A stretch of DNA of 64,000 nt from Corallium rubrum. Lineage: Eukaryota; Cnidaria; Anthozoa; Scleralcyonacea; Coralliidae. The notes under the pieces are model-generated. The model worked only from the letters and a program-made list of their open reading frames with translations. It ran no database searches and was not told where the DNA came from. The stretch lies in assembly GCA_964035015.1 (NCBI GenBank), contig OZ036003.1, positions 4,803,754 to 4,867,753 on the forward strand, in the 5' to 3' direction. Both the position numbers and the translations under genes were made by a program. Shown here piece after piece: positions 11,068 through 63,686 of this stretch. The stretch's first letter is position 1, and every line of letters begins with the position of its first letter.

Positions 11068-11206
11068 GAATTTCACTCGATTACATAGCATGTTCTAAGG
11101 ATTTTGGGTGAAGGAAAATTCGAGTGTAGAATATAACATTTTGAGATAAAACCGGGACCAGTTGCGAAAAATGCAACTACACAGGCCTTCCGGCAGGAAT
11201 TGAACC
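11068..11206 (-). mobile_element. tRNA-derived SINE, truncated copy
   Basis: On the minus strand it shares the body of the SINEs at 18276 and 18518: TTCAATTCCTGCCGGAAGGC, GTTGCATTTTTCGCAACTGG, then ACTCGAATTTTCCTTCACC. The tRNA-like head with box A is missing. Confidence 0.75.
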
Positions 11207-11291
11207 CGGTCAAATTTGTATAACGCCGTCGTGAAATCTGACCGGTCAAAAATCGCCTTTGACCGGTCACAATTGGAACTGACCAGTCAAT
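11207..11291. repeat. GACCGGTCA-type repeats flanking the GAT array
   Basis: Short repeats of (T)GACCGGTCA and GGTCAAATTTGTATAA occur here. They recur at 12800-12860 and, with variation, at 15787-15840, on the outer sides of the GAT arrays. Confidence 0.6.
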
Positions 11292-18212: not shown

Positions 18213-18265
<53 letters not shown>

Positions 18266-18275
18266 AATATTGGGC

Positions 18276-18445
18276 ATTTCACTCGATTACATAGCGTGTA
18301 CTAAGGATTTTAGGTGAAGGAAAATTCGAGTGCAGAATAGCGAAAAATGCAACTACACAGGCCTTCCGGCAGGAATTGAACCCACGACCTTGCGATTGTA
18401 GTGCAATGCTCTGACCATTGAGCCACGGAGGGCGTTGCCGAGAGC
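18276..18445 (-). mobile_element. tRNA-derived SINE, minus copy
   Basis: The minus strand has the tRNA-like head with box A (TGGCTCAATGG) and box B (GGTTCAATTCC), then the CCGGAAGGCCTGTGTAGTTG body and the ACTCGAATTTTCCTTCACC tail. It lacks about 40 bp of body present in the neighbouring plus copy. Confidence 0.85.
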
Positions 18446-18517
18446 AATATTCCTTATAATATACCCAATTCTCTCCTGGCATTACCACCTTATTATATAT
18501 ACAGAACTCGCGATCAA

Positions 18518-18700
18518 GCTCTCGGCAACACCCTCCGTGGCTCAGTGGTCAGAGCATTGCACTACAATCGCAAGGTCGTGGGTTCAGTTCCTGCCGGAAG
18601 GCCTGTGTAGTTGCATTTTTCGCAACTGGTCCCGGTTTGGTCTTAAAATGTATATATTCTGCACTCGAATTTTCCTTCACCTAAAATCCTTAGTACACGC

Positions 18701-18701
<1 letters not shown>
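18518..18701 (+). mobile_element. tRNA-derived SINE, plus copy
   Basis: The head carries CCCTCCGTGGCTCAGTGGTC (box A inside) and GTGGGTTCAGTTCCTGCC (box B), followed by the same body and tail as the copies at 18276 and 11068. The two copies here are head to head, and each tail adjoins a TA dinucleotide run. Confidence 0.85.
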
Positions 18702-18733
<32 letters not shown>

Positions 18734-20350: not shown

Positions 20351-20940
20351 ATTAGGTTTTTAGACGTTCTCTGGTTTAAAATATAAGGGACAGACCATCA
20401 CCCGAAGATCAGACTAATGTGGTGTACCATATTAATTGCTCGTTTTGCTCGTGGAGCTACAATGGTGAGACAGGCAGAGCCTTCAACACTCAGAGAAAAG
20501 AACACAAAAGAAATGTAGAGCAATGTAAAAGTGGGTCCAACATCACCAAACATGCTTGGTCAAACAATCATCGAATAGACTTTAAAAACAGTAAAATCCT
20601 TGATAAGGGCAACTATCGGCATAGAACAACATTAGAATCATGGCACACCGCAAGCACAAACAATTTGGATAATAATTGTAAACATTTGCCTGAACAATAC
20701 CGCTTCCTTATTAAAAAAATCTAAATACCATAAACATTTAAATTTAGTCGTTAACCTTATACGTAGGCGGAACTGTCACTTGCATGTCACTATACTATCT
20801 GTTTGTCTCTATATGTAATTGAAAACCACTGACATGTCACTTTTTTCATCGTAATTCATCCGTCGAAGACTGCAGACTGGCAATCGAAAGCATGTAAACT
20901 AAATAAATATTTTAAACCAGAGAATGTCTAAAAACCTAAT
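20351..20940 (+). mobile_element. Penelope-like element 3' fragment with inverted termini
   Basis: A 590-bp unit is bounded by 34-bp inverted repeats (start ATTAGGTTTTTAGAC; 33 of 34 match). It carries the C-terminal GIY-YIG endonuclease part of a Penelope-like retroelement followed by about 180 bp of 3' sequence. Only the 3' end is present, as usual for truncated copies. It sits in the intron between exons 3 and 4 of the MGAT5-like gene, on the opposite strand. Confidence 0.75.
20386..20724 (+). pseudogene. GIY-YIG endonuclease domain of a Penelope-like element (partial)
   Basis: The open frame reads RPSPEDQTNVVYHINC, then WSYNGETGRAFNTQRKEHKR, later HAWSNNHRIDF and KILDKGNYRHRTTLESWH, and stops at 20724. 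The VVY.I.C..C....Y.GETGR....R..EH pattern with the later H.W...H.IDF and LES.H blocks is the GIY-YIG module fused to Penelope-type reverse transcriptases. The usual I of YIG is N here. The RT part is absent, so the element cannot move itself. Confidence 0.85.
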
Positions 20941-32070: not shown

Positions 32071-32852
32071 TTTCATGATGTCTTACTCTGCTAAAGTCAA
32101 CCGAAAAATTTCGGCTGACTCGCGCGGGATTTAAACTCGCACCTTCGGGATTCCGGTCCGCCGCTCTACCTGTTGAGCTATCGAGCCGCACATGCAGGGA
32201 TTGGAGGCAAGTTCTATCCAACTTAAGTGCACGAGATATTCTCGCGACAACTTAACGCTTATCCGTGAGGACGTGCAGTGTTTCAATTCTATTACAGAAT
32301 CATCCTCAGAAACATGAGAAAATTTTTCATGATGTCTTACACTGCTAAAGTCAACCGAAAAATTTCGGCTGACTCGAGCGGGATTTGAACTCGCACCTTC
32401 GGGATTCCGGTCCGCCGCTCTACCTGTTGAGCTATCGAGCCGCACAGGGATTGGAGGCAAGTTCTATCCAACTTAAGTGCACGAGATATTCTCGCGACAA
32501 CTTAATGCTTATCCGTGAGGACGTGCAGTGTTTCAATTCTATTACAGAATCATCCTCAGAAACATGAGAAAATTTTTCATGATGTCTTACACTGCTAAAG
32601 TCAACCGAAACACTGCACATGCACGGATAAGCGTTAAGTTGTCGCGAGAATATCTCGTGCACTTAAGTTGGATAGAACTTGCCTCCAATCCCTGTGTGGC
32701 TCGATAGCTCAACAGGTAGAGCGGCGGACCGGAATCCCGAAGGTGCGAGTTCAAATCCCGCTCGAGTCAGCCGAAATTTTTCGGTTGACTTTAGCAGTGT
32801 AAGACATCATGAAAAATTTTCTCATGTTTCTGAGGATGATTCTGTAATAGGA
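32071..32852. mobile_element. Cluster of three tRNA-derived SINEs inside the satellite
   Basis: There are two minus-strand copies (about 32071-32335 and 32336-32600) and one plus copy (about 32610-32852). Each has a tRNA-like head with TAGCTCAACAGGTAGAGC (box A) and GAGTTCAAATCCCGC (box B), and a shared body (AACTTAAGTGCACGAGATAT on the minus copies) and tail (ATGAGAAAATTTTTCATGA). The tRNA-like heads lie at 32114-32188, 32368-32442 and 32698-32771. The last two copies form an inverted repeat. Confidence 0.85.
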
Positions 32853-36892: not shown

Positions 36893-36946
36893 GTAATCAG
36901 CAGATAATTAAATTCAACTGGAACTATTTAAACTAATTTTACTACC

Positions 36947-39442
36947 ATGGGTTATGTCTCTCCCAAGTGTGGCCATATTATTAATGGAGATTCTACTACA
37001 CTTATGTCACATCTAAAAAACACACATGCACTTATTTTTGGAGATTCGTTCACATGTGCCATTACATGTTCACAAGATGGATGTAAGCGTACTTTTAGGT
37101 ACCGATATGCACTAAAACGACATATCGATAGACATCATGAATCAATTCAGAGTGACCAAGAGGATTTGCACGATAACGATGATAATAATAGGGGACTAAA
37201 TGGTAGCAATGATAGTAATCCCAATTGTAATGGTTCAGATGAGGAAGATAATATATGTGATGTGTTCAACCAGGAAAAACTAACTGAAATGGCGGCGGTT
37301 GGCATTGCTCAAATGAAATCTTCAAGTAGTGTGGTCCAATCAACCATAGATATGGTTGTAGCACAGTCTTCTAATTTGTTCCATGACATTGTTGGTGGTT
37401 TAAGGGAAAGAACATCCAAATTTTTGTCAGAAAGGGGATTTGGTGAAGACGATGAAGAAGTTCAAAATTTGCTTGATACCTTTCAAAATTGTGAAGTTCC
37501 ATATCAGCATATTCAAAATTCATACCAGCAAAATAAATATTTTGAAAATTCTGGTTTCTTTATCAAGCCTGTGGAAGTACCAATTGGTGTCGGATATTTC
37601 CCACATCACAACAGAACAACTGGTCATGTCGAACAACATGCCAAGCATATTACTTTTCAGTATATACCAATTCAGAAACTTTTGAAATGCATTCTTGAGA
37701 GCAAAAACTTCATGTCTACTGTGTTACAATATCAATGCAGTAATGATGGCATTTTAAGAGATTTCAATGATGGCCAATACTGTAAAGAGCACAATTTCTT
37801 TTCCAATCCACAAAATCTTCAGCTTCTCTTGTATGTTGACGAGTGCGAGGTTGCTAATCCTCTTGGCTCCAAGGCAGGTCTACATAAGATTGGAGTGGTC
37901 TACTGCACAATAATGAACATACCCCCTAAATATCGCTCATCCTTGTCGAATTGCTTTCTTGTTTCAATGTTTAACGCTGGAGATGTGAAGACATATGGTT
38001 ATGACACTATTCTGAGGCCTCTTGTTGATGATATTAAGAAGCTGGAGACTGATGGTGTGCACATTGACAGTGATGTGTACAGTGGAACTGTTAAAGTGAG
38101 CATTGCTCAGGTTTCAGGTGACAACCTTGGTGTCAATGGTATTTGTGGATTTGTGGAAAGTTTTGTTGGCAACCATTATTGCAGGCACTGCAAGATGCAC
38201 AGGAATGACACATGGTACTCCTCAATTGAGAGACCAGATGTCCTTCGGACAGAAGAGGATCATGAAGTTGACATTGGCATTAATAATCCAGCAACGACCG
38301 GTGTAAAGTCCTCGTGCCTTCTTAATGATGTCGAAAATTTCCATGTAACAAATAACATTGCTCCTGACATAATGCATGATCTTTTGGAAGGCATTTGCAG
38401 TTTGGAGGTTCATCTTGTCCTTGCTGTGTTGATACAAGAAGGCTTTTTCACCTTAGATTTATTGAATAGCAGGGTTACCAGCTTTGACTATGGATTACAA
38501 GATTTAAAAAATAAGCCTTCTGTAATTTCGGCTTCCAAACTGCAAACCCCAGATGGTCCAACTCATCAAACAGCTGCACAAATGTGGTGTCTGGTACGTC
38601 ATATTCCTCTGCTAATTGGTGACAGAGTACCTGAAGATAATGAATACTTTGAATTGTTATTGTTACTGCTAGACTGCATGGACATCATATTTTCATATGA
38701 AGTAACTGTAGAGGAAACACTGTTTCTCAAGCACCTTATCAATGAACACCATCAGCTGTTCTTAGAGTTATTCCCAGCACGCCATCTAAAGCCCAAACAC
38801 CACTTCATGACACACTATCCTCGTCAGATCCGCATGCTTGGGCCCCTCATACGCTACTGGACAATGCGGTTTGAAGCTAAGCATGGATTCTTTAAACGTT
38901 TGGGCCATATAGTGTGCAATTTCAGGAACATTCTCAAGACACTCAGCTATAGACAGCAGATGTACTTCTGTTATAATATGATGAGTGCAAAAGATCTTGT
39001 CAAAAGAGATCAGGAGGTTGGGCCAGGGTCGTCTGTTCTTGTGGCTTCTTTACCAAATGCCAGGATTTTGGAGGCTGCACTTGGTGCTCATCTGTTGGAT
39101 GAGGTTTATCTTGCAAAATGGTGTGTTGTCCATGGAAATAAGTACCAGAAGAATATGGTGGTTGTTACTGGAAAAACAGATGAACTTGAACCTGTTTTTC
39201 AAAGGATTGTATATGTGATTTGTATGGAGGATGGAATTAAACTGGTTACTGAGCCACTTAACCTTGTGAAGTTTGATCGACACTCACACTGCTATGTAGT
39301 GCAAGAACCACAAGTGCAGAGATTATGGAACATAAATTGTGTGGAAAATCTGCTGGATTACCAACCATACCATGCAGCCAAGTCATATGACCAGACCAAA
39401 GAGTCGCATCTTTTCATTGCTTTAAGACACAGGATTCACTAA
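36947..39442 (+). CDS. EnSpm/CACTA-type transposase
   Basis: An intact 831-codon frame starts at ATG 36947, just after an in-frame stop. The N-terminus has a C2H2 zinc finger (CSQDGCKRTFRYRYALKRH plus a second H) preceded by a partial finger. An acidic Asp/Asn-rich linker follows. The catalytic core fits the TNP2-like fold: LLLYVDECEVANPLG with D298, SGDNLGVNGICGF with D392, and MRFEAKHGFFKR with E643; PARHLKPKHHFMTHYPRQ lies between. The enzyme would cut at the CAC termini in the nucleus. The ORF lies on the same strand inside the intron between exons 2 and 3 of the SAM-like gene. No stop or frameshift suggests recent activity. Confidence 0.88.
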   Translation: MGYVSPKCGHIINGDSTTLMSHLKNTHALIFGDSFTCAITCSQDGCKRTFRYRYALKRHIDRHHESIQSDQEDLHDNDDNNRGLNGSNDSNPNCNGSDEEDNICDVFNQEKLTEMAAVGIAQMKSSSSVVQSTIDMVVAQSSNLFHDIVGGLRERTSKFLSERGFGEDDEEVQNLLDTFQNCEVPYQHIQNSYQQNKYFENSGFFIKPVEVPIGVGYFPHHNRTTGHVEQHAKHITFQYIPIQKLLKCILESKNFMSTVLQYQCSNDGILRDFNDGQYCKEHNFFSNPQNLQLLLYVDECEVANPLGSKAGLHKIGVVYCTIMNIPPKYRSSLSNCFLVSMFNAGDVKTYGYDTILRPLVDDIKKLETDGVHIDSDVYSGTVKVSIAQVSGDNLGVNGICGFVESFVGNHYCRHCKMHRNDTWYSSIERPDVLRTEEDHEVDIGINNPATTGVKSSCLLNDVENFHVTNNIAPDIMHDLLEGICSLEVHLVLAVLIQEGFFTLDLLNSRVTSFDYGLQDLKNKPSVISASKLQTPDGPTHQTAAQMWCLVRHIPLLIGDRVPEDNEYFELLLLLLDCMDIIFSYEVTVEETLFLKHLINEHHQLFLELFPARHLKPKHHFMTHYPRQIRMLGPLIRYWTMRFEAKHGFFKRLGHIVCNFRNILKTLSYRQQMYFCYNMMSAKDLVKRDQEVGPGSSVLVASLPNARILEAALGAHLLDEVYLAKWCVVHGNKYQKNMVVVTGKTDELEPVFQRIVYVICMEDGIKLVTEPLNLVKFDRHSHCYVVQEPQVQRLWNINCVENLLDYQPYHAAKSYDQTKESHLFIALRHRIH

Positions 39443-51004: not shown

Positions 51005-51905
51005 TTAGAGATACGAGCGAACTAGTGGATGGTGATCTTACTGTGACTGCAGCCAATGGTAGCAACATACCGTATAAAGGATGGGTAGAACTAGATTTAC
51101 AAATCGGAGATTCTGAACACACACTTTCGGTTCCCTTTTTAGTAGCAAACGAGGAAGTGGAACTTCCTTTAGTTGGCTTCAATGTTATTGAACATTTTAT
51201 TAAGGACAACAAACTTCAAGGCAGCGATATGGAAACTGCTTTCGTTGGTGTAAATGCTTGTGATGCGACAGCCCTTGTCGATTTTGTGAACAATGTCAAC
51301 CATGATGAATTGTGTCTTGTAAAGACATGCAAGAAAGATGTGCTTATACCTCGAGGCCAGTCTGTGAAAGTAAGCTGCAGGGTAAACACTGGTCCACTAG
51401 ATAAACGAACACCAGTTTTGTTTGAAGCTGATGAGAACAGTCAGTGGCCTTCTGGGATTCAAGTTGTTGACACATTATTGACGGTAAATGTGGGCAAATC
51501 TAGTAAAGTGGAAGTGGAGGTAAAAAATACGACCAACCATGACATTAAGTTAAAGAACAGAACAGTACTAGGCCGCCTACAACTTATTCAATCAGTTGTT
51601 CCTGTAGAGGTGAAATTAAAGACAGATGGATCTACCGGACAATCATCTCCACAACGAAACGAAGAAAACAACAGCGCGGCAACTCCCCAGAATAATCGCG
51701 AACCAATAAACTTGCCGAACAACTTGAAAGACGTGGATTTAGGTGACTTAAACAGCGAGCAAAGAGAAACTGCTGCGCAGCTGCTGATCGAACAGGCCGA
51801 TGCATTCGCCCAAGACGACGATGACATTGGTTGTATCTCTGATCTCCAAATGAACATCCAACTCAACGACACCACACTGACCTGTTCAGAAGAACTACGT
51901 CGCTG
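50998..51905 (+). pseudogene. pol: Gypsy pol: rest of protease and linker
   Basis: This continues the protease fold (VTAANGSNIPYKGWVELDL, LVGFNVIEHF) and a linker with VPRG-like IPRGQSVKVSCRV and a beta-rich segment. It ends before RT with DIGCISDLQMNIQLNDT. The next frameshift is near 51890-51905. Confidence 0.75.
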
Positions 51906-52640
51906 TTCCCCGACCATTGTATCCAGAAGTGAAAGCTTATGTTGAAGATTTATTGAATAAAAATTTTATTCGCAAATCGACATCATCCTACAGTTCGCCT
52001 GTGGTTTGCGTTAGAAAGAAAGATCAGAGCCTAAGGTTATGTGTGGATTATCGTGAGCTGAACAAAAGAACTCAAGTAGATCGTCATCCTATTCCTAGGA
52101 TCCTAGACAATCTTGGTGGCAATTCATGGTTTTCGGTACTTGACCAAGGGAAAGCCTACCATCAAGGGTTCCTCAGGGCCGAAAGCCAGCCTCTCACTGC
52201 GTTCATAACACCATGGGGGCTGTACGAGTGGGTGCGCATTCCTTTTGGACTTTGCAACGCACCAGCCTCTTTTCAGCGTTTCATGGAAATGTGCCTTGGG
52301 GATTTACGAGATGAAATATGCGTGCCATATCTGGATGACATTATCGTCTTCAGCACATCCTTCGATGAACACATTGTACACCTTCGAAAAGTCCTTCAGC
52401 GCCTGAAAGAACATGGTGTCAAGTTGAAACCAAAAAAGTGTACCATGTTCAAGCGAGAGGTTTTGTTCCTTGGACGAGTCGTTTCAGAAGAAGGATACAA
52501 GTTGGATCCGTCTACAATTACACCCGTACTTCGTCTGAAAGAAACTCCTCCCAAAACCATAAACGAGGTCCGGAAACTAATGGAATTTTTGAACTATTAT
52601 CGTCGATCGATATATCGAGAACTTTTCACGGATTGCCAAA
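51890..52640 (+). pseudogene. pol: Gypsy pol: reverse transcriptase
   Basis: It contains the RT palm and fingers: [61 protein letters not shown], and the catalytic YLDDIIVF (positions about 52328-52351). The frame is lost again near 52630, at the end of the connection to RNase H. Without the shifts the order would be normal for Ty3/Gypsy. Confidence 0.85.
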
Positions 52641-53682
52641 CCAATTTACGACCTGGTAAAGTTAGTGGACAAAGACGAAACGAACACCAATCCCAAGAGA
52701 AAACGACGCAGCCAGTCACCTCCAAACCAAGAAATTATTTGGACAGCAACTCACCAATCAGCTTTGGAGCAACTTATCGAATGTCTTGTAAGCGTCCCAG
52801 TGATGGCATACCCAGAACCCAATAGCCCTTATGTACTGCACACAGATGCATCCGAAAGCGGACTAGGTGCTGTGCTCTACCAACAACAAAACGATGTTTT
52901 GCGTATTATTGCTTATGGTTCTCGCACATTAACTCCAGCAGAGAAGAATTACCATCTTCATTCCGGCAAATTGGAATTTCTCGCTTTGAAGTGGGCAATT
53001 TGTGAACAATTTAGGGACTACCTCTACTATGCTCCAAGTTTTCTTGTGTTTACAGATAACAATCCATTGACCTATGTCTTGTCAACTGCCAAGCTGAACG
53101 GCACTGGACTCCGGTGGGTTGGAGAGCTAGCGGATTTCCACCTTACAATACGTTATCGACCAGGAAGAGCAAACGCTGACGCTGACACGTTATCCCGAAC
53201 TCCGAATGATATGGACGAGTACATGAGATCGTGTACGGAGGAAACCAGTCAAAACGAGTTACGAACAATCATTCAAACCGTGCAGCTTCAAGAACAGGGA
53301 AAGGTGAACTGGGTATCTTCGTTGACTAACGATCCAAGTATTCTCACTGCCGACGCATCACGCCCTCTAGAGAACAACAGACCAACACTCGAATTAAATG
53401 ACATTCGACAGACCCAAACCGAAGATAGTGTTATTGGTACAGCGTACTCGTTTATCAAAGCAAACAAACGACCCACCGCAAGTCAGCGAGCCCGCGAATC
53501 AGCCGACACACGCCTGCTTTTCCACGAATGGCAGAAACTATCAATCGACGCACATGGAATCTTACGAAGGAAAAGTGGTCCACGCAACCAAATAGTTCTT
53601 CCCAGAAAGTATCACCCTATGGTTCTGAAAGAGCTCCACAACAATATGGGTCATCTGGGATCTGATCGGGTTCTTTCGGGCC
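52640..53682 (+). pseudogene. pol: Gypsy pol: RNase H and start of integrase
   Basis: RNase H motifs YVLHTDASESGLGAVLYQ, HSGKLEFLALKWA and FTDNNPLTYV are followed by IRYRPGRANADADTLSR. The integrase zinc domain begins with HNNMGHLGSDRVL and is then interrupted by the LINE 3' tail. Confidence 0.85.
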
Positions 53683-53841
53683 CACGGTAATTGGCGATTG
53701 CTGTTGTGGTGTCCCTGCCATTTTTCTTTCTAGGGTAGTTTTGTAGGTTTTTTTTTTGTATTTGTAATGTACATTTTTTCTTTGGCGAATTTAATAAATT
53801 AAAAATAAATTAAAAATTAAATTAAAATTAAAAATTAAGAG
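53683..53841 (+). mobile_element. LINE 3'-end insertion inside the integrase gene
   Basis: About 160 bp (GTAATTGGCGATTGCTGTTG ... CTTTGGCGAATTTAATAAA, then an AAATTAAAATT-rich tail) matches the LINE 3' terminus at 8255-8360. It separates the two halves of the integrase zinc-binding domain. I see no clear target duplication. Confidence 0.7.
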
Positions 53842-54221
53842 ATCGATTTTATTGGCCGCGAATGCAAAGTGATGTGGAACATTACGTTAAGAACCTCTGT
53901 CACTGTATTAAACAGAAACCCCAAAGATTAAAAAACAGAGCTCCACTTCAACCAATCATTACCTCTTCACTATTCGAATTGGTATCAATAGATTTTGTTC
54001 ACCTAGAAAAGTCGAGTGGAGGATTCGAGTATATCCTAGTGATTGTTGATCACTTTACGCGATACGCTCAACCGTACCCTACCCGCAACAAGGCAGGAAG
54101 AACAGTGGCAGAGAAACTGTACAACGATTTCGTGCTACGTTTTGGATTTTCCGCCAAATTCCATCACGATCAGGGTGGCGAATTCGAGAACCAACTCCTC
54201 CTGAGACTTGAACAGCTATGC
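53842..54221 (+). pseudogene. pol: Gypsy pol: integrase core, first part
   Basis: It contains RDRFYWPRMQSDVEHYVKNL and CHC of the zinc domain, LVSIDFVHLEKSSGGF with the first catalytic Asp, and FHHDQGGEFENQLL with the second. The frame is then cut by the CACTA-like element at 54222. The third catalytic residue lies on the far side, at about 62430. Confidence 0.85.
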
Positions 54222-54500
54222 ACTGTAATTTTTAGGGAGTAAAAACTACTCTTACTTGGGTCAAAAATTACTCTTCCGAGTGGAGTAACCTAAATTGGAG
54301 CAAAAGTTGCCCCTGTTTGGGGGTAAAATAATAATAAAACTACTCTTGTGTGGAGTAAATATTACTCGTACGATCGAGTAACTCTAAATTGGAGTAAAAT
54401 TTACCCCTGTTAAAGGGGTAGTCAGGGTAAGACAGGGGTAATAAGTCTGGTGGAGTAAATATTACTCCGTAATATCAGATTAAAAATTACCCCTCTTCAC
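54222..54500. promoter_or_regulatory. Left subterminal repeats
   Basis: Repeated GGAGTAA, GGGGTAA and TTACTC(C) motifs (for example AAATTGGAGTAAAATTTACC) occur in both orientations and are candidate transposase-binding sites. Confidence 0.5.
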
Positions 54501-55958
54501 GATATTTCAAGATGGCGTAATAATGGTGGATTTCGTCTGATTAAGATTTTATTTGTTTGATAACTTTGGTTACTGACGACCTTGAAGAGATGAATTGTCC
54601 TCAATGTACAGTCTTTGACATTGTGACTCCAGGGAAGTGAAGCTGTTATAAATATTATTTAGTATTGATACTTAATAAGGTTATGAGCGCGCTTAGGAGC
54701 GATTGTCTGAGGCAAACAAATGCGTTCTATAAAGTCTATTAAAACGACCGTGTGTCATATATTCAACATTTTAAACTATATACAGAATATATAGTAATAA
54801 CTAATTGAGATTGTTGAATGTATGCAATGAAACATGCTTTCATTTTGAGCCGCTATATGAGCTCTGTCAGGTGGACTGTTACCAGCATTGTTGTGTCAAT
54901 AATAAAACTAAATCTGTTGACTTGTGCTTGGCCGTGGTTTGGCTGAATCGGTGTTTACTCTATATGCGGTGTTTAGTTATGTATATGTAAAGTATAATGC
55001 GCGCGACGCTTACTAAATATATACTATATCATGCACTATTTTCTATTTCGGGTCGAAGGTTTAGTAAATTAATCTTCTTTGAGAACATTATGTTGAGCAC
55101 AGTTCATGATCAGCGCCAAGCAAAATATACTGTATGTATATTATCCTATATGCCATGCATAAGCGGTAGAAATTCGGATTATTAGTTAGGACGACGCATT
55201 CCGATGTTATTGGGAACTTTAATATGCATATATACGTGGAATCTTGCTAAACTTAATTCGGCGCAGAAATCTATTCAATGATTTTGTAGCATGCGGTAAT
55301 GTTACAAAAATCATTGAATATATTTCTGTGCCGAATTAAGTTATACAATCATGTACATCTGCTTGCCATATGTCACCTTTTACCGCGTTTATATAAAATA
55401 TTCGTGTAATAGTTTGCCTTGGTAGAGTGATATAAGCGGTGCTAACGTTCTAGTTATGAACGATAGTTTTTGGTGTGCGTTTCTGGCCTTATATATTGTA
55501 TAGCTAGCCTGATTGATATCCATGTTCTCTTATTTTGTCCTTTGAACACTTGACAGTTGGGTATTTTCTTGACGTGTTATAGAAAACGCAATTTCCGCTA
55601 AAAGATAATCTAATTTAGTGCATCAAACATCTGTTTATCATACCAGACCGTGCGTGCATGTGGAGGTGTCATATTTTCCTGTCGCAACCATAGCCAATCA
55701 TTTGATTTCTTATGTTGTATAAACCAATCAAAATGCATGCCAAGATCTGGCGCTTGATTCAGATTATGAGACGAAAAAGCGGTTGGTCTCCCATACAGTC
55801 AGTTATGGACTTCTGGTCTTCTGGAAGCCTACTAAAGCGTTGCTTTACATGTGGATATAGTATTAAATACTCGTTCATTAGAGTACATTTCTGAACGTAT
55901 GGAGAGCTAATACAAAGCCAAAGGTAAGCGAAAGTAATATTTTACTAGTACAGATGTC

Positions 55959-55960
<2 letters not shown>
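54501..55960. other. Interior sequence without genes
   Basis: Unique AT-rich sequence with one strong hairpin at 55249-55342 (AACTTAATTCGGC(G)CAGAAAT paired with its inverse). Nothing coding is recognised. Confidence 0.5.

Positions 55961-56004
<44 letters not shown>
55961..56004. repeat. (TA)n run
   Basis: A dinucleotide run immediately left of the hammerhead array. Confidence 0.9.
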
Positions 56005-56005
<1 letters not shown>

Positions 56006-56008
<3 letters not shown>

Positions 56009-56062
56009 CAATCTACAGACACGTGTTTCGCTGTACTACAGCTCATCAGTGTAGCTTGGAAC
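56006..56062 (-). ncRNA. Type I hammerhead ribozyme, unit 1
   Basis: On the minus strand: stem I (CTACA with TGTAG, extended by GTTC with GAAC across an internal loop), core CTGATGA, stem II GCTGT-AGT-ACAGC, core GAAA, a short stem III inside the self-complementary ACACGTGT, then C17. All core bases are canonical. Predicted cleavage follows GTC, between plus positions 56018 and 56017. A 2-bp stem III suggests that a dimeric fold is favoured. Confidence 0.9.
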
Positions 56063-56281
56063 AATCTGAATGAGTTTCATCAATTACTTATACACATGCG
56101 ATCGTTGGTGGCAACCGCATGTGGGACAGCATTGGTGAAGTACATTCAGATAGCGTGAAGTGCGCATGGGCCCAGAGTGCTCAAACTTCCACAAGGGTAG
56201 TGAGCGTTGCATTATCGCTAATAGGTACCCACGGCAACTTCACAGAGTGCTCAACAACACCGAAGTGAAGGAGCGTACATA

Positions 56282-56338
56282 GTTCAATCTACAGACACGT
56301 GTTTCGCTGTACTACAGCTCATCAGTGTAGCTTGGAAC
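56282..56338 (-). ncRNA. Type I hammerhead ribozyme, unit 2
   Basis: Same sequence as unit 1, 276 bp downstream. Confidence 0.9.
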
Positions 56339-56557
56339 AATCTGAATGAGTTTCATCAATTACTTATACACATGCGATCGTTGGTGGCAACCGCATGTGG
56401 GACAGCATTGGTGAAGTACATTCAGATAGCGTGAAGTGCGCATGGGCCCAGAGTGCTCAAACTTCCACAAGGGTAGTGAGCGTTGCATTATCGCTAATAG
56501 GTACCCACGGCAACTTCACAGAGTGCTCAACAACACCGAAGTGAAGGAGCGTACATA

Positions 56558-56614
56558 GTTCAATCTACAGACACGTGTTTCGCTGTACTACAGCTCATCA
56601 GTGTAGCTTGGAAC
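56558..56614 (-). ncRNA. Type I hammerhead ribozyme, unit 3
   Basis: Same sequence as unit 1. Confidence 0.9.
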
Positions 56615-56833
56615 AATCTGAATGAGTTTCATCAATTACTTATACACATGCGATCGTTGGTGGCAACCGCATGTGGGACAGCATTGGTGAAGTACATTCA
56701 GATAGCGTGAAGTGCGCATGGGCCCAGAGTGCTCAAACTTCCACAAGGGTAGTGAGCGTTGCATTATCGCTAATAGGTACCCACGGCAACTTCACAGAGT
56801 GCTCAACAACACCGAAGTGAAGGAGCGTACATA

Positions 56834-56890
56834 GTTCAATCTACAGACACGTGTTTCGCTGTACTACAGCTCATCAGTGTAGCTTGGAAC
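56834..56890 (-). ncRNA. Type I hammerhead ribozyme, unit 4
   Basis: Same sequence as unit 1; the 2-bp insertion of this unit lies outside the ribozyme. Confidence 0.9.
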
Positions 56891-57111
56891 AATCTGAATG
56901 AGTTTCATCAATTACTTATACACATGCGATCGTTGGTGGCAACCGCATGTGGGACAGCATTGGTGAAGTACATTCAGATAGCGTGAAGTGCGCATGGGCC
57001 CAGAGTGCTCAAACTTCCACAAGGGTAGTGAGCGTTGCATTATCGCTAATAGGTACCCACGGCAACTTCACAGAGAGTGCTCAACAACACCGAAGTGAAG
57101 GAGCGTACATA

Positions 57112-57168
57112 GTTCAATCTACAGACACGTGTTTCGCTGTACTACAGCTCATCAGTGTAGCTTGGAAC
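57112..57168 (-). ncRNA. Type I hammerhead ribozyme, unit 5
   Basis: Same sequence as unit 1. Confidence 0.9.
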
Positions 57169-57387
57169 AATCTGAATGAGTTTCATCAATTACTTATACA
57201 CATGCGATCGTTGGTGGCAACCGCATGTGGGACAGCATTGGTGAAGTACATTCAGATAGCGTGAAGTGCGCATGGGCCCAGAGTGCTCAAACTTCCACAA
57301 GGGTAGTGAGCGTTGCATTATCGCTAATAGGTACCCACGGCAACTTCACAGAGTGCTCAACAACACCGAAGTGAAGGAGCGTACATA

Positions 57388-57444
57388 GTTCAATCTACAG
57401 ACACGTGTTTCGCTGTACTACAGCTCATCAGTGTAGCTTGGAAC
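57388..57444 (-). ncRNA. Type I hammerhead ribozyme, unit 6
   Basis: Same sequence as unit 1. Confidence 0.9.
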
Positions 57445-57663
57445 AATCTGAATGAGTTTCATCAATTACTTATACACATGCGATCGTTGGTGGCAACCGC
57501 ATGTGGGACAGCATTGGTGAAGTACATTCAGATAGCGTGAAGTGCGCATGGGCCCAGAGTGCTCAAACTTCCACAAGGGTAGTGAGCGTTGCATTATCGC
57601 TAATAGGTACCCACGGCAACTTCACAGAGTGCTCAACAACACCGAAGTGAAGGAGCGTACATA

Positions 57664-57720
57664 GTTCAATCTACAGACACGTGTTTCGCTGTACTACAGC
57701 TCATCAGTGTAGCTTGGAAC
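57664..57720 (-). ncRNA. Type I hammerhead ribozyme, unit 7
   Basis: Same sequence as unit 1; on minus-strand transcripts this is the first unit reached. Confidence 0.9.
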
Positions 57721-57950
57721 AATCTGAATGAGTTTCATCAATTACTTATACACATGCGATCGTTGGTGGCAACCGCATGTGGGACAGCATTGGTGAAGTA
57801 CATTCAGATAGCGTGAAGTGCGCATGGGCCCAGAGTGCTCAAACTTCCACAAGGGTAGTGAGCGTTGCATTATCGCTAATAGGTACCCACGGCAACTTCA
57901 CAGAGTGCTCAACAACACCGAAGTGAAGGAGCGTACATGAGTGGCCGTGT

Positions 57951-59719
57951 CAGGGGCGGATCTAGAGGGGTGCAATAGGTGCTATAGCACCAGTCAGATT
58001 TTTGCAAAAAAATGATGCGAATTATTATCAGTCATTCGCCACAGAATTTGTATTCAATGCGCCCGCGATCTTATCTAGTCAGCTCTCACCCTTTGAAATT
58101 GTAAAACATAATATTTCTGTTTACATGAAGTATCGTTTGACCTGCCAAGCATCTCTCGCTGCATCCTACGGGTTAGCCACAGAGCGGTGCTGCAAGGGGG
58201 GAACTGCCGCTTGCACCCCTGGATCTATTTATAACAACAGTCTGTGCTATTTTTAGAAACAGAGCACCCATGAACGTAGGTGCCAGCCAATCAGAAGGGC
58301 GGAATCAGATGCAGTTTAAGGGGGGAGCCGCGATTTGCTACCCTCAGCGCTGTCATAATTTATATTTATTACATAATAATTTTTGTTTCGGACTACGGTT
58401 AATCTTATGTAAGACCATTGCACGCTGTGTCTACTCGAGATTTCTTTCAATTTCACTGTGAGTTTTGATCGTTTTACGATCGGATGGCTTCCAAAAACGT
58501 ATTGCAGTAATTGCGGAATATACTCAATGGGAGCTTTTCTTCTGTGGAAGGAGAGGAAAAATTATCTTTGCTTCGAGATGAATGTGCGCGGATTGTCGAT
58601 ATGGAGAGGAAGAAGGCTGTTGATGGTCGTGTTCGTTCCTTGAGCGTATGCCAGTTTGCGAGATCCCAATTTCCAAATAGCGAAGAATCACGCTGTTTTA
58701 ACTATTACCCAGTAAGGTAAGCATATATTTGTATTCATTTCGATAAAATATCTTATGAATAATAGATAGTTATGTAAAGTAAGTAGCGTCATCATGTCAT
58801 GAATAACTTAAGAATATCGCTGTCCAGTCGCCATGTTTTGAAATGCAACTGTCGAGTGTTAATAGATACTATAAGATGTAGTGCTTTTTCAGTCTTGCTT
58901 TGTATCATTTTTTTATTGTATAGGTTAAATCTAAAAGATTAAAGAATCTACCTATAATTATATTATCTAATGCCTTTAATTATGTTAAGATAATATTATA
59001 GGTAGATTCTTTAAAGTTATAATGATTAATCTTTATTTTTAGTTTATAATATTTTGTTTGAAGCTTTGAATTTGATGATCATGTCGATGATGTTCATGAA
59101 TATTTGTGTGTTAATATCTGTGATCATGCCATTGATGATTATTTACAAAATTACAATGTACTTCAATAACTTATTCTGAATTTAAACTTTAGAGAAATTC
59201 ATTTAAATTGAAAAATCCTTTAATTATTATTTTTTGATCCTATAATACTTGTTCTAGAACTTCGGGTGATGGTAACTGCCTGTACAAGTACTGTGCTGCT
59301 GCTTATTTTACTTGTTTATTAACTGGTGGAACTGTCTCAAGTACTGTTCTGCTGTTTACCCTACTTGTTTATTATCTGATGGAACTTCGTGCCCACGGCT
59401 AGTAAATCCCTTACCTCTTGCAAACATGGAAAAATGCTAGTATAAATTTATTTTGATATATTACAGTAATAAGTATAGATAAAATTCTAATTGATCAATA
59501 GAAAATTGCAAATTCTAGATTTTTAAGTCCTATGTACTGGTTAAAATTTGTAAAAAAAGTAAAGGAATAACTCGGGTAAAGTCACTCTCAGAATGCAGGA
59601 AATGCTGTTTCTGGGGTTTGAAATTTCAAAATTTTCCGGGGGGGCATGCCCCCGGACCCCCCTAGAATGGTGTCATCACTAATTTGCTACAGTCAGATTT
59701 TGGTCTAGATCCGCCCCTG
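57951..59719. mobile_element. TIR element with CAGGGGCGGATCTAGA ends
   Basis: The 16-bp termini are perfectly inverted, and the insertion is flanked by CGTGT on both sides (57946-57950, 59720-59724). Termini of this kind are frequent in hAT-related MITEs, but a 5-bp duplication is not the hAT length, so the superfamily stays open. An open stretch at 58540-58716 (LLRDECARIVDMERKKAVDG) followed by GTAAGC looks exon-like but matches nothing I know. A hairpin lies at 58938-59015. Confidence 0.65.
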
Positions 59720-59724
59720 CGTGT

Positions 59725-61985
59725 TGTATTGGATATATAAGCTCGAGCCGAAGGCAAGAGCTTGTCATATCCAATATAACCCGGACACGAATATTGTAAA
59801 ATATATTTGTTCAGATTAATTCAGAAAAAGCTCATTTTCAATGTTTTAGTGCGGAGATGAAGTGAGTTTTGGTTCACGAAATGTTAGAGAGTGCTCAATA
59901 CCATATAGATAGAGCAAAATATAAAGCTTTAAGGTAACTATACTTCATGCTTTATATATATATATATATTCCAGACAGTTTGCCTTTGTATTTAATGCCA
60001 GACAGTTTCAGTTTGCCTTGAGTGAGTTAATTTCCAAACTTGGCGCGTACTCACTTCTTGATTTGCGATGGCCAATAATGGCATTGGCGCTTACAAATAG
60101 ATATAAAGGAATGATATAGAGGAGCTATATATTATATCTTTTGATAGCAATGGGAGTAATTACCAGTGTAAGAAATGTTGTGATTGTTATTGTGAGCGAG
60201 TACTGTGCAAATAATATGTCAGTATAACTTCTGCTGTTTGGTCTTCAGTATATCTTTTCCAACTTTTCTGTACTAGTCTGCATACTATTTACATATACAT
60301 ATTTTTATATGCACGCACGTACTGAAAGAATATTGAAAGACTGACATGAATTCATTTTCGAAAGCACACGGGTACGCACGTCCTTTCACGACTTGATGAT
60401 TAATGTTTGTTTTATCTCACATTACAGATGCCTTTACAATACAGAACTTGAAGATTAAGTCTCATCAAGATGACGGTCTTGTAAGCAGGTTTTGGTAACT
60501 ATATGCATACTAAGATGGTTTACAAATATTATATCGTTAATCGGATATAGAAAATAACATAATTGAACTAGACTGACGTAAATAGCGTGCACTGCAAGGA
60601 AGACCCTGCAGGCATTTTTAAAGCTAAGGTATGCCAGCTTTTAAAAGCTAAATTATCGGTGAAAATATGCAATAATATCTGCATGTCCACACAATAAGAA
60701 ACTATCAATATATATTATATTATATTTGTACGTTATGTTGCCAGGTTTATTTTACACAGACTAGGATAATTCGTGTTTTACTGTGCTTTAAGACTTATTC
60801 CATCTGGGATGTGTGAAAAGTAAATATGAGATTATATAAAACCTGATACACTCAAATGTACTGTTGTATGCTGGATTTAAAATAAAGAAATGGAATTGAG
60901 ATATTGAACTCTCTACGTGCTGGAGTTTTGAGTTGACGCGACTTGAAACAGAACGTTGAGGCGGCACGCCTTGCGAGTAGAGAAATATTTCAATTCCCCA
61001 TGTTACTATGCTGGAGTTTTGAGTTGGCACGACTTGAAACAGAACGTTGAGGCGGCACGCCTTGCGAAAGTAACTATCTTTATTATTTTTCTTTATGCTT
61101 CCTTAAACAATATATTGATATAATTTTTATGAATATTTATCCAGATGGAACATGTCTCAAAGTGCGCCATAACGCAAAATATATTTTAAATGGAAAAATA
61201 GAATGTTGCCAAGCTGGCAAACTTTTTATTACATGCATTTTTCATAATACACATACCACAATTTAAAATAGAGGATGTATAACGTGTGATATGCTGGGAC
61301 AATATGTTGCTCTCCCTTCTCCTACTGCATCGCATTTAACTTGTATTCTTCTAATTGTTTAAAGGTGACAGCGATTCAGAACTGCTGTGGGAGAAATTAT
61401 CAATCGATAGATCTTTCAAAGACGGCGGCTAACTCTATTTCTGCTGTGTCTATATAATTAGCGTAGGAAAGTCATGCAATGTATAGCAACATTTGCGTTC
61501 AACGCAACGCAGCGGCTTTATTTGCGTTAACGTTTTGACCTTAGCACTATTAATGCTGTTATACCTGAACATTACTTATCTAACAGAATGAAAGGATAAG
61601 ACACGTTTAGTTTGAAAGATGGCATTCGACAGGCCGCTATTGTAAGAATAATGAATACATGGTTTTGTAAAGTTATATAATTGTTAAATGTATAATTTCC
61701 TTTACCTAAAAGTAAAAGTAAAAGGCTAAATATTTGAATGTGACGAAGGAGAGACGTTGCATGCGCTATTGCATCCCAGCGTATTAGTTATTTTCGATTT
61801 ATGTAGAACTTATTATTTCAAGGTATAGTAACACGTACTGAATAAAGTCACTGAAATATTTCCGAATCTTTCATGTTGCATATTTTACGTTATATGTTTT
61901 ATATTTTCGCTTTGTGAACGCTTTAACTAGAGCGCGCTAACAAAAACATTCACCACAAAAATGTTTGGCGTAATATATATTTCTC
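59725..61985. other. Interior sequence of the CACTA-like element
   Basis: Features seen: an inverted repeat TATTGGATAT/ATATCCAATA around 59728-59782; a diverged copy of the 17000-17130 region at about 59860-59960, in part inverted; and two copies of a 59-bp unit, TGCTGGAGTTTTGAGTTG to CACGCCTTGCGA, at 60918 and 61009. No gene is supported. Confidence 0.55.
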
Positions 61986-62372
61986 GTTTTGAAAGGTAGA
62001 TTTTACTCCTCAAAGCTTTACCTTTTAGGGTAAAACTTACTCTCCGTGCGTAGGAGTAATTTTTACTCCCCCAGAAATTTTACCCCTCAAAACTGGGGCA
62101 TTTCTACGACAAACCTTTTACCCACAATTTGAGGGTAAAAATTACCCTCTTTGGTTAGGAGTAATTTTTACTCCCCCAAAAATTTTACCCCTCAAAACTG
62201 GGGCATTTCTACGACAAACCTTTTACCCACAATTTGAGGGTAAAAATTACCCTCTTTGGTTAGGAGTAATTTTTACTCCCCCAAAAATTTTACCCCTCAA
62301 CACTGGGGCATTTCTACGACAAATATTAAGCCGTGTTTTGAGAGTAATTTTTACTCCCTAAAAATTACTGTG
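61986..62372. repeat. Right subterminal repeats: 105-bp tandem unit
   Basis: Units start at 62051, 62156 and 62261 (TAGGAGTAATTTTTACTCCC, then CCTCAAAACTGGGGCATTTC and CCCACAATTTGAGGGTAAAA). They contain the GAGTAA and GGGTAA motifs of the left end. Confidence 0.85.
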
Positions 62373-62374
62373 TG

Positions 62375-63686
62375 TGGTGTAAAGCATTCCCGCACAACAC
62401 CGTACCACCCACAAGGAAACGGACAGGTGGAACGATTTAATAGAACGCTGCTGGATATGCTTCGAACACTCCCTGACAACGAGAAGTCGCACTGGAAAGA
62501 TCACGTAAACAAGGTGGTGCATGCGTATAACTGCACGCGAAACGATTCGACCGGGTATTCACCATTCTTCCTCCTGTTCGGGCGACACCCCCGGCTACCA
62601 ATCGACCTTCTTTTTAACTCCAGCACATCAACACCTAATAAGAACTATCCACAGTACGTTTCACAATGGAGAAATGCAATGCAAGAAGCATACCAACTAG
62701 CAGGACAGAAGATGAATCAGAGAGGTGCTACAGCCAAGAAGTACTACGATCGTTGGGTACGGAGTTCAGTTCTACAGCCTGGTGATCGAGTTCTGGTGCG
62801 AAACCTGAGTGAACGTGGTGGCCCTGGAAAGCTTAGATCATACTGGGAAAATGACGTTCACGTCGTGGTTCAACGGAAAGGTCCGCAAAGTCCAGTTTAT
62901 GAGGTTAAGTCTGAAACTACAAGAACGAAAAGCCGAATTTTGCACAGAAATTTACTGCTTCCGTGTGACTTCTTGCCAGTGGAACGTCAACAGACTAATG
63001 CTACCTCAACAATTCCACCACAACGACCACGTAACAAATGGAAACCAAGGCTCGTTGTCCCAGTAACGAACAATAACGAAACTTCCACTGACGACGAAGA
63101 GATGCCTGATGTTGTCACGATCTTCAACCCCAGAGACGCAGTTCAAAATCCCCACCACGAGAGTGTTCCAGAGACCGAAATTGTTCCAGAGATCGAAATT
63201 GTTCCAGAGACTGAGATTGTTCCAGAGAACGTTGGGCATAACGATCAGCTGCAAGACGTATTACCTGTAGCACCTGAAGACAATAACGACCATGGTGAGA
63301 AAGATGGTGCAAATCAAATTGGTGAAATGGAAGCGCCTCCATTGGTGGAATCAAGAACAAGAAGAGTGAGACAACCACCTGACCGCCTAACGTACTACGG
63401 ACGTGGCCAAGTAGGACCAGCAAACCTGTTTCACACGTCGGCAACATCTCCACCAATTCGTTGGTGTCCACCTCACCTGTTTGCGACCAATACACCTTTT
63501 CCATTTGTCTACCCACCAACCATGTATGGATCGCCCGTCGTTAACATACCTTACCTATTTCCCAACCACAACACCTCGTACCCTACCCACAACTTACCTT
63601 ATCCACTCACCAACTTCCAGCAACCTGTATGTGGACAGACAACGATGCCTTATCAAGCCAACTGGAACTTTAATCCATATTATTAA
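62375..63686 (+). pseudogene. pol: Gypsy pol: integrase core, second part, and C-terminal tail
   Basis: After the CACTA-like element the frame resumes with TTPYHPQGNGQVERFNRTLL, which holds the third catalytic residue (Glu of QVERFNR), then YNCTRNDSTGYSPFFLLFGR and LQPGDRVLVRN of the C-terminal DNA-binding region. A polar linker has three to four VPE(T/I)EI repeats. The tail is rich in Pro, Tyr and Asn (FVYPPTMYGSPVVNIPYLF) and ends at TAA 63684. No envelope-like ORF follows within the window. Confidence 0.85.

Follow-up and report, generated by a model that had tools for sequence, protein, structure and literature searches.

A seven-unit hammerhead array abutting a (TA)n microsatellite in Corallium rubrum, interpreted as an animal retrozyme

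What is the tandem array of hammerhead-bearing units that starts directly at a TA microsatellite in a 64-kb stretch of the Corallium rubrum genome (the window, 64,000 nucleotides in all), and how might it have been copied into that place? A sequence-only reading had taken the array for an animal retrozyme. The best reading remains an animal non-LTR retrozyme, whose RNA is predicted from its sequence to cleave itself and to form circles, because a type I hammerhead in each unit, the unit size, the GC content, a strand-biased RNA fold and a set of diverged relatives all argue for that class. Among the features that run against it, no target duplication was found among words not made solely of A and T, and the active hammerhead fold is not the predicted energy optimum.

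Organization of the array and anatomy of the hammerhead

Tandem Repeats Finder and a script delimit an array of 1936 bp, which corresponds to seven units of 276 bp plus 2 bp for an insertion in unit 4 and 2 bp for a shared AT (Table 1). Both methods bear out the seven tandem units of about 276 bp that had been claimed, with six of the seven at 276 bp and unit 4 at 278 bp; the anchors at 56007, 56283, 56559, 56835, 57113, 57389 and 57665 are spaced by 276, 276, 276, 278, 276 and 276 bp. The accompanying claim that the units repeat with no change holds for the hammerheads but not for the whole units; the sole difference among them is an inserted AG (2 bp) in the fourth. Unit 7 stops two bases short of the next expected anchor. 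The array holds an integral number of units, its two ends being in the same phase and sharing AT. The near-identical units show no covariation among them. The GC content of the array is 47.1% versus 36% in the flank at 54226-55959, and the best match of the unit to the rest of the 64-kb window is an exact match of 14 bases (E 0.11).

Table 1. Positions of the array, its hammerheads and the elements around it (numbering of the window)
Feature	Positions	Strand	Remarks
Putative retrozyme array, 7 head-to-tail units	56003..57938	-	Tandem Repeats Finder and script
Hammerhead, unit 1	56006..56062	-	Spans both outer ends of helix I; predicted cut 56018/56017
Hammerhead, unit 2	56282..56338	-	Outer ends by offset from unit 1
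Hammerhead, unit 3	56558..56614	-	Outer ends by offset from unit 1
Hammerhead, unit 4 (278-bp unit)	56834..56890	-	Outer ends by offset from unit 1
Hammerhead, unit 5	57112..57168	-	Outer ends by offset from unit 1
Hammerhead, unit 6	57388..57444	-	Outer ends by offset from unit 1
Hammerhead, unit 7	57664..57720	-	Outer ends by offset from unit 1
Perfect (TA)23 microsatellite	55960..56005		Adjoins the array without a gap, 3' in the RNA sense
Gypsy pol frames (RT, RNase H, split integrase)	51881..63686	+	Interrupted by the 8140-bp element
8140-bp element	54227..62366		Inverted ends 26/30 identical; 5-bp duplication ACTGT; holds the array
1769-bp element	57951..59719		16-bp inverted ends CAGGGGCGGATCTAGA; CGTGT on both sides

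Every unit carries on its minus strand the order CUACA-CUGAUGA-GCUGU/AGU/ACAGC-GAAAC/ACGU/GUC-UGUAG, which is a complete type I hammerhead. The sequence-only reading had proposed such a hammerhead in each unit, and a strict descriptor confirms it in seven of seven. Helix II has the perfect 5 bp that had been described, and the short self-complementary stem III turns out to consist of two pairs closed by a palindromic ACGU loop. Since ACACGUGU in the helix III region is a palindrome, pairing of two RNAs at this place is possible. Helix I consists of 5 bp and is followed by an internal loop and an outer 4-bp helix (GUUC/GAAC) that was absent from the earlier description; the loops of the hammerhead are CAAG/AUU and AGU. 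The cut of unit 1 is predicted between 56018 and 56017, and the codon table places it at this same, previously proposed position.

The strict descriptor returned 14 rows at seven places in the 64-kb window, which are the seven units, and nothing in 100 windows simulated under a first-order random sequence model (12.8 million strand-bases). A loose hammerhead scan of the window found nothing outside the array. The covariance models that had been suggested as a check gave a divided answer: no hammerhead reached the Rfam gathering cut-off anywhere in the window, but in a search of 55900-58050, below the cut-off of 52 bits, RF02275 (Hammerhead_HH9) matched unit 1 at 23.3 bits (E 0.0088) and the remaining six units at 21.3 bits (E 0.038), with an alignment that takes in the core and all helices. 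These Rfam rows give the best family per clan only, and the score of the type I model itself is hidden behind that of HH9.

Pattern scans were extended beyond the window. An exact 32-mer pattern had no match in viral contigs, and a 39-base junction pattern had no match. A looser core pattern occurred in two viral and eight genome-contig stretches, and a pattern of the core followed by a TA run occurred in nine viral stretches, none of them with full helices. The 19 bare-pattern loci were considered as hammerheads and are taken as chance occurrences, as in none of them do helices I and II reach 4 bp while helix III reaches 2 bp. All seven units of the array attain these lengths. A comparison of the unit with phages gave one 34-base match (E 0.9).

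The predicted fold of the RNA depends on the strand. As a circle, the minus-strand unit reaches -87.2 kcal/mol (z -4.18), with none of 200 dinucleotide shuffles equally stable, compared with -77.9 kcal/mol (z -1.90) and eight of 200 equally stable shuffles for the plus strand. The stable RNA fold is, by this prediction, mainly on the ribozyme (minus) strand, where 68% of the bases are paired in the circular optimum. Under an energy model of which tertiary contacts are not part, the active hammerhead fold lies above the optimum by 2.7 kcal/mol in a 62-mer and by 6.1 kcal/mol in the circle. Pair probabilities in the linear unit are 0.79-0.97 for helix II and at most 0.02 for helices I and III, and the computed two-strand optimum of the 62-mer has no paired helix III.

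Could the hammerhead then be a dead relic or a look-alike within an ordinary satellite? Rfam scores under the cut-off, an active fold that is not the predicted optimum and the chance appearance of bare core patterns elsewhere would all agree with such an origin. However, helices of the required length occur in seven of seven units versus zero of 19 bare-pattern loci, and the core residues are kept in the diverged relatives described below, which makes a relic or look-alike highly improbable.

Diverged relatives and the (TA)n junction

A frame of 120 aa, the longest one over the array, has no Pfam match and is open by chance across two units. Used as a protein probe, it identified four related ORFs (P0241-P0244) out of seven candidates, with E values from 2.6e-19 to 2.4e-7. 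Over the hammerhead stretch the four are identical to the unit at 25, 26, 20 and 25 of 27 residues, and outside this stretch they diverge and shift frame relative to the unit. The residues T-D-T-C-F, which cover the cut site and GAA, are unchanged in all four. The one change in the CUGAUGA stretch, Ile to Val in P0241, fits a change of the seventh-position U, and the seventh base of CUGAUGA is a free position. The first helix II pair is changed in both P0241 and P0244, where a G-U pair would be left if the change is G to A. As read from its residues, P0243 is the poorest hammerhead match of the four: one of its changes disrupts a pair of outer helix I, and a second may do the same in helix II. 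A search for relatives in viral contigs that started from P0241 gave two pattern matches, neither of which was confirmed.

The (TA)n junction, which the sequence-only reading did not mention, is the most informative feature of the locus. The (TA)23 run reaches precisely to the end of the first hammerhead's outer helix. Read in the sense of the ribozyme RNA, outer helix I is followed on its 3' side by UAU, which marks the 3' junction and lies 12 nt beyond the cut; the flank on the other (right) side of the array is not TA-rich. Directly before the codon that corresponds to the junction of the window, P0241, P0242 and P0244 carry Ile-Tyr runs, as (TA)n encodes, and the sequences beyond these TA-like runs differ among the three; P0243 shows no TA run at this codon at the residue level. 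The 3' end that stands beside AT-rich DNA in the window appears to do so in three of the four relatives as well, which are known at the protein level only and whose junction is read from residues. Six perfect TA runs of at least 12 bp occur in the 64-kb window, and repeated abutment at one and the same base is therefore not expected by chance. We give no chance probability for the relatives, which are open frames and carry a bias towards TA flanks. The accessible part of the open-licence literature yielded no description of retrozymes joined to (TA)n in this way.

P0242 has TA-like sequence on both sides. Its left run is imperfect, and TA-rich residues recur about 66 codons on, where the unit of the window continues. 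To judge from these residues, P0242 looks like a 5'-truncated single copy within a microsatellite. This relative bears on the possibility that the TA run did not serve as the target but arose upon insertion as a tail, through slippage of a reverse transcriptase on the junction UAU. Such a tail would explain why, in the window and the three relatives alike, the run follows the RNA-sense 3' end, and UAU is indeed present at the junction. We nevertheless consider it unlikely, as P0242 is TA-rich on both sides and its imperfect left run is what would be expected of an older microsatellite.

The flanks of the array were compared for a target duplication, and none was found in a count from which words of A and T only had been dropped. 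The longest word shared by the flanks has 6 bases in the raw comparison and 8 bases (TGGATATA, which lies off the junction) once the inner element is omitted. A missing duplication, near-identical units and an integral unit count, in phase at both ends and with AT shared between them, would also result from amplification at the DNA level, either by unequal exchange in place or by reinsertion of a multi-unit DNA circle through 2-bp AT microhomology. The hammerhead would then be a passenger at this locus, which is compatible with a retrozyme origin of the sequence. That the left junction is common to three of four relatives argues that this end was set at insertion and not by later expansion, and P0242 looks like a single part-unit; amplification at the DNA level consequently appears improbable to us as the source of the array.

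Class assignment and a model of copying

How does the array compare with known hammerhead elements? In the available portions of PMC7229834, which describe animal non-LTR retrozymes of coral, mussel and axolotl, the units likewise carry a type I hammerhead each and are arranged in tandem at 150-450 bp, a range that includes the seven units of 276-278 bp found here. The same portions give the GC content of animal retrozymes as below 50% in the text and below 45% in one legend, and the value of the array agrees with the former only. The lack of an LTR, a stable self-paired RNA and, as in invertebrate hammerheads, a helix III of two pairs with a tetraloop are further common traits, and mussel hammerheads are said there to lack most conserved loop contacts. 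A (TA)n junction in a fixed position at the hammerhead foot does not appear in these portions. Self-pairing of retrozyme RNA is given as about 70% in the consulted part of PMC4918200, and the unit of the array lies just under this value. Animal retrozymes are described, in the published accounts as far as consulted, with target duplications of more than 4 bp when these are present; at the array none was found among words not made solely of A and T. They are also described as dispersed in copies, for which the four related ORFs are candidates here, and as lacking a primer-binding site and a polypurine tract. The retrozyme family is probably new, the published retrozymes having been compared by description and not by sequence. 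Plant LTR retrozymes differ in having a type III hammerhead within LTRs and a size of 600-1000 bp, and Penelope-like elements differ in carrying, between their repeats, an ORF for a reverse transcriptase and a GIY-YIG endonuclease, which the array does not contain.

Which enzyme could have moved such a sequence? The fixed 3' junction at AT-rich DNA suggests, by analogy with known elements, target-primed reverse transcription from an internal start. Across the window and its relatives, the RNA-sense 3' end looks fixed and the 5' end looks variable, with an array of seven units here and a part-unit in P0242. Copying therefore probably began inside a circular or multimeric RNA and not at ends made by the hammerhead.

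A close parallel is Poseidon, a Penelope-like element of Anolis (PMC11167929), which also has a hammerhead near the start of copying. Poseidon combines a fixed internal start, an AT-rich target and tandem copies; for the array, the start is deduced from the junction. In vitro, Poseidon cuts AT-rich DNA and performs reverse transcription from fixed internal sites, a mode reported as unlike that of other retrotransposons, and hammerhead mutants still insert (PMC11167929). The two differ in geometry: Poseidon starts at 111-118 into the ORF, which is some 85-92 nt downstream of its hammerhead cut (at 26), and the site is non-homologous to the cut DNA, whereas the start here would be 12-15 nt past the cut, with a UAU able to pair with TA DNA. 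Rotifer terminons, as described in the accessible part of PMC6431247, resemble the array in having a hammerhead as the 3'-terminal fold with landing-site sequence directly downstream, although they are giant, coding and telomeric and the unit of the array is small, non-coding and abuts (TA)n. Penelope elements are also said, in the extracts of PMC3846280, to work in trans and to prefer targets of simple, AT-rich sequence. We propose a helper of the Penelope type on the basis of the internal starts of Poseidon, the landing sites of terminons and the AT-rich targets of Penelope elements in trans.

We favor, with some confidence, the view that the array is a non-autonomous animal retrozyme copied from a fixed internal start into AT-rich DNA by a trans-acting reverse transcriptase. 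Read-through transcription of the minus strand would yield a multimeric RNA, in which the hammerheads may fold singly or as a dimer via the palindromic helix III and would cut at GUC. As in published animal cases, a host ligase would close 276-nt circles. A reverse transcriptase supplied in trans would then open AT-rich DNA, here the (TA)n microsatellite, and take the RNA, circular or multimeric, as its template, with the UAU that borders outer helix I on the 3' side, 12 nt beyond the cut, as the starting point. Running on round the circle or along the multimer would produce a head-to-tail array, and an early stop would leave a 5'-truncated single copy.

More tentatively, and with less than even confidence, we suggest that animal retrozymes in general may be parasites of the Penelope machinery, with the hammerhead as a 3'-terminal fold that presents the UAU start at (TA)n and with circles copied into arrays. 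If this is true, the locus would provide a signature, at the sequence level, of the enzyme behind the movement of animal retrozymes. The authors of PMC7229834 suggest, in its available portions, LINEs or Penelope-like elements as the mover, and the consulted part of PMC7761336 reports no conserved repeat motif that points to the helper enzyme. If found at the DNA level in many copies, the fixed abutment of the hammerhead foot on (TA)n would supply a pointer of this kind.

The mover could instead be a LINE-type enzyme that favors AT-rich or microsatellite DNA. LINE families specific to microsatellites exist (PMC4640811, in the part available), and LINE-like duplications of 15 bp are reported for Nematostella repeats in the consulted part of PMC4918200. 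Given that a fixed-site internal start is reported as unlike other retrotransposons (PMC11167929) and that no duplication was found at the array, a LINE-type mover seems rather doubtful, and a Penelope-type enzyme is preferred.

Nested elements and other features of the window

The array lies within an inverted-repeat element that itself lies in a Gypsy integrase gene, as the sequence-only reading had recognized: the integrase frame is broken at 54226, resumes at 62367 and is continuous once the 8140-bp element is removed. The right end of this element carries three 105-bp repeats (62023-62337), and shorter related repeats occupy its left end (54242-54411). The inner 1769-bp element is separated from the array by 12 bp. 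Past the inner element, 18 bases at 59886-59903 resemble a part of the unit (AGAGAGTGCTCAA) with an exact core of 11 bases, probably by chance.

Further repeats and frames are spread over the rest of the window. A 114-aa ORF at 20380-20724, which has no Pfam match even at E 10, resembles by eye the terminal GIY-YIG endonuclease part of a Penelope-like element and may be a remnant of one. Two inverted tRNA-Cys-like sequences (18361-18432 on the minus strand and 18531-18602 on the plus strand) lie within 18223-18727 and are flanked by TA runs at 18223-18262 and 18701-18727. This stretch, to which a copy at 11070-11207 is related, seems to be another element between TA runs. Three tRNA-like matches at 32116-32769 (two minus, one plus), two of them tRNA-Ser according to ARAGORN, sit in a block of 250 bp that is duplicated and bordered by long 33-bp minisatellites. 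Finally, an 836-aa open frame at 36932-39442 has a weak match to Transposase_21 (tnp2) under the cut-off; among the best 120 of its 256 relatives, the best match is 99% identical, the best-scoring one from a named species (the sea cucumber Apostichopus japonicus) is 57% identical over 99%, and the highest identity to a named species (the crinoid Anneissia japonica) is 75% over 67%.
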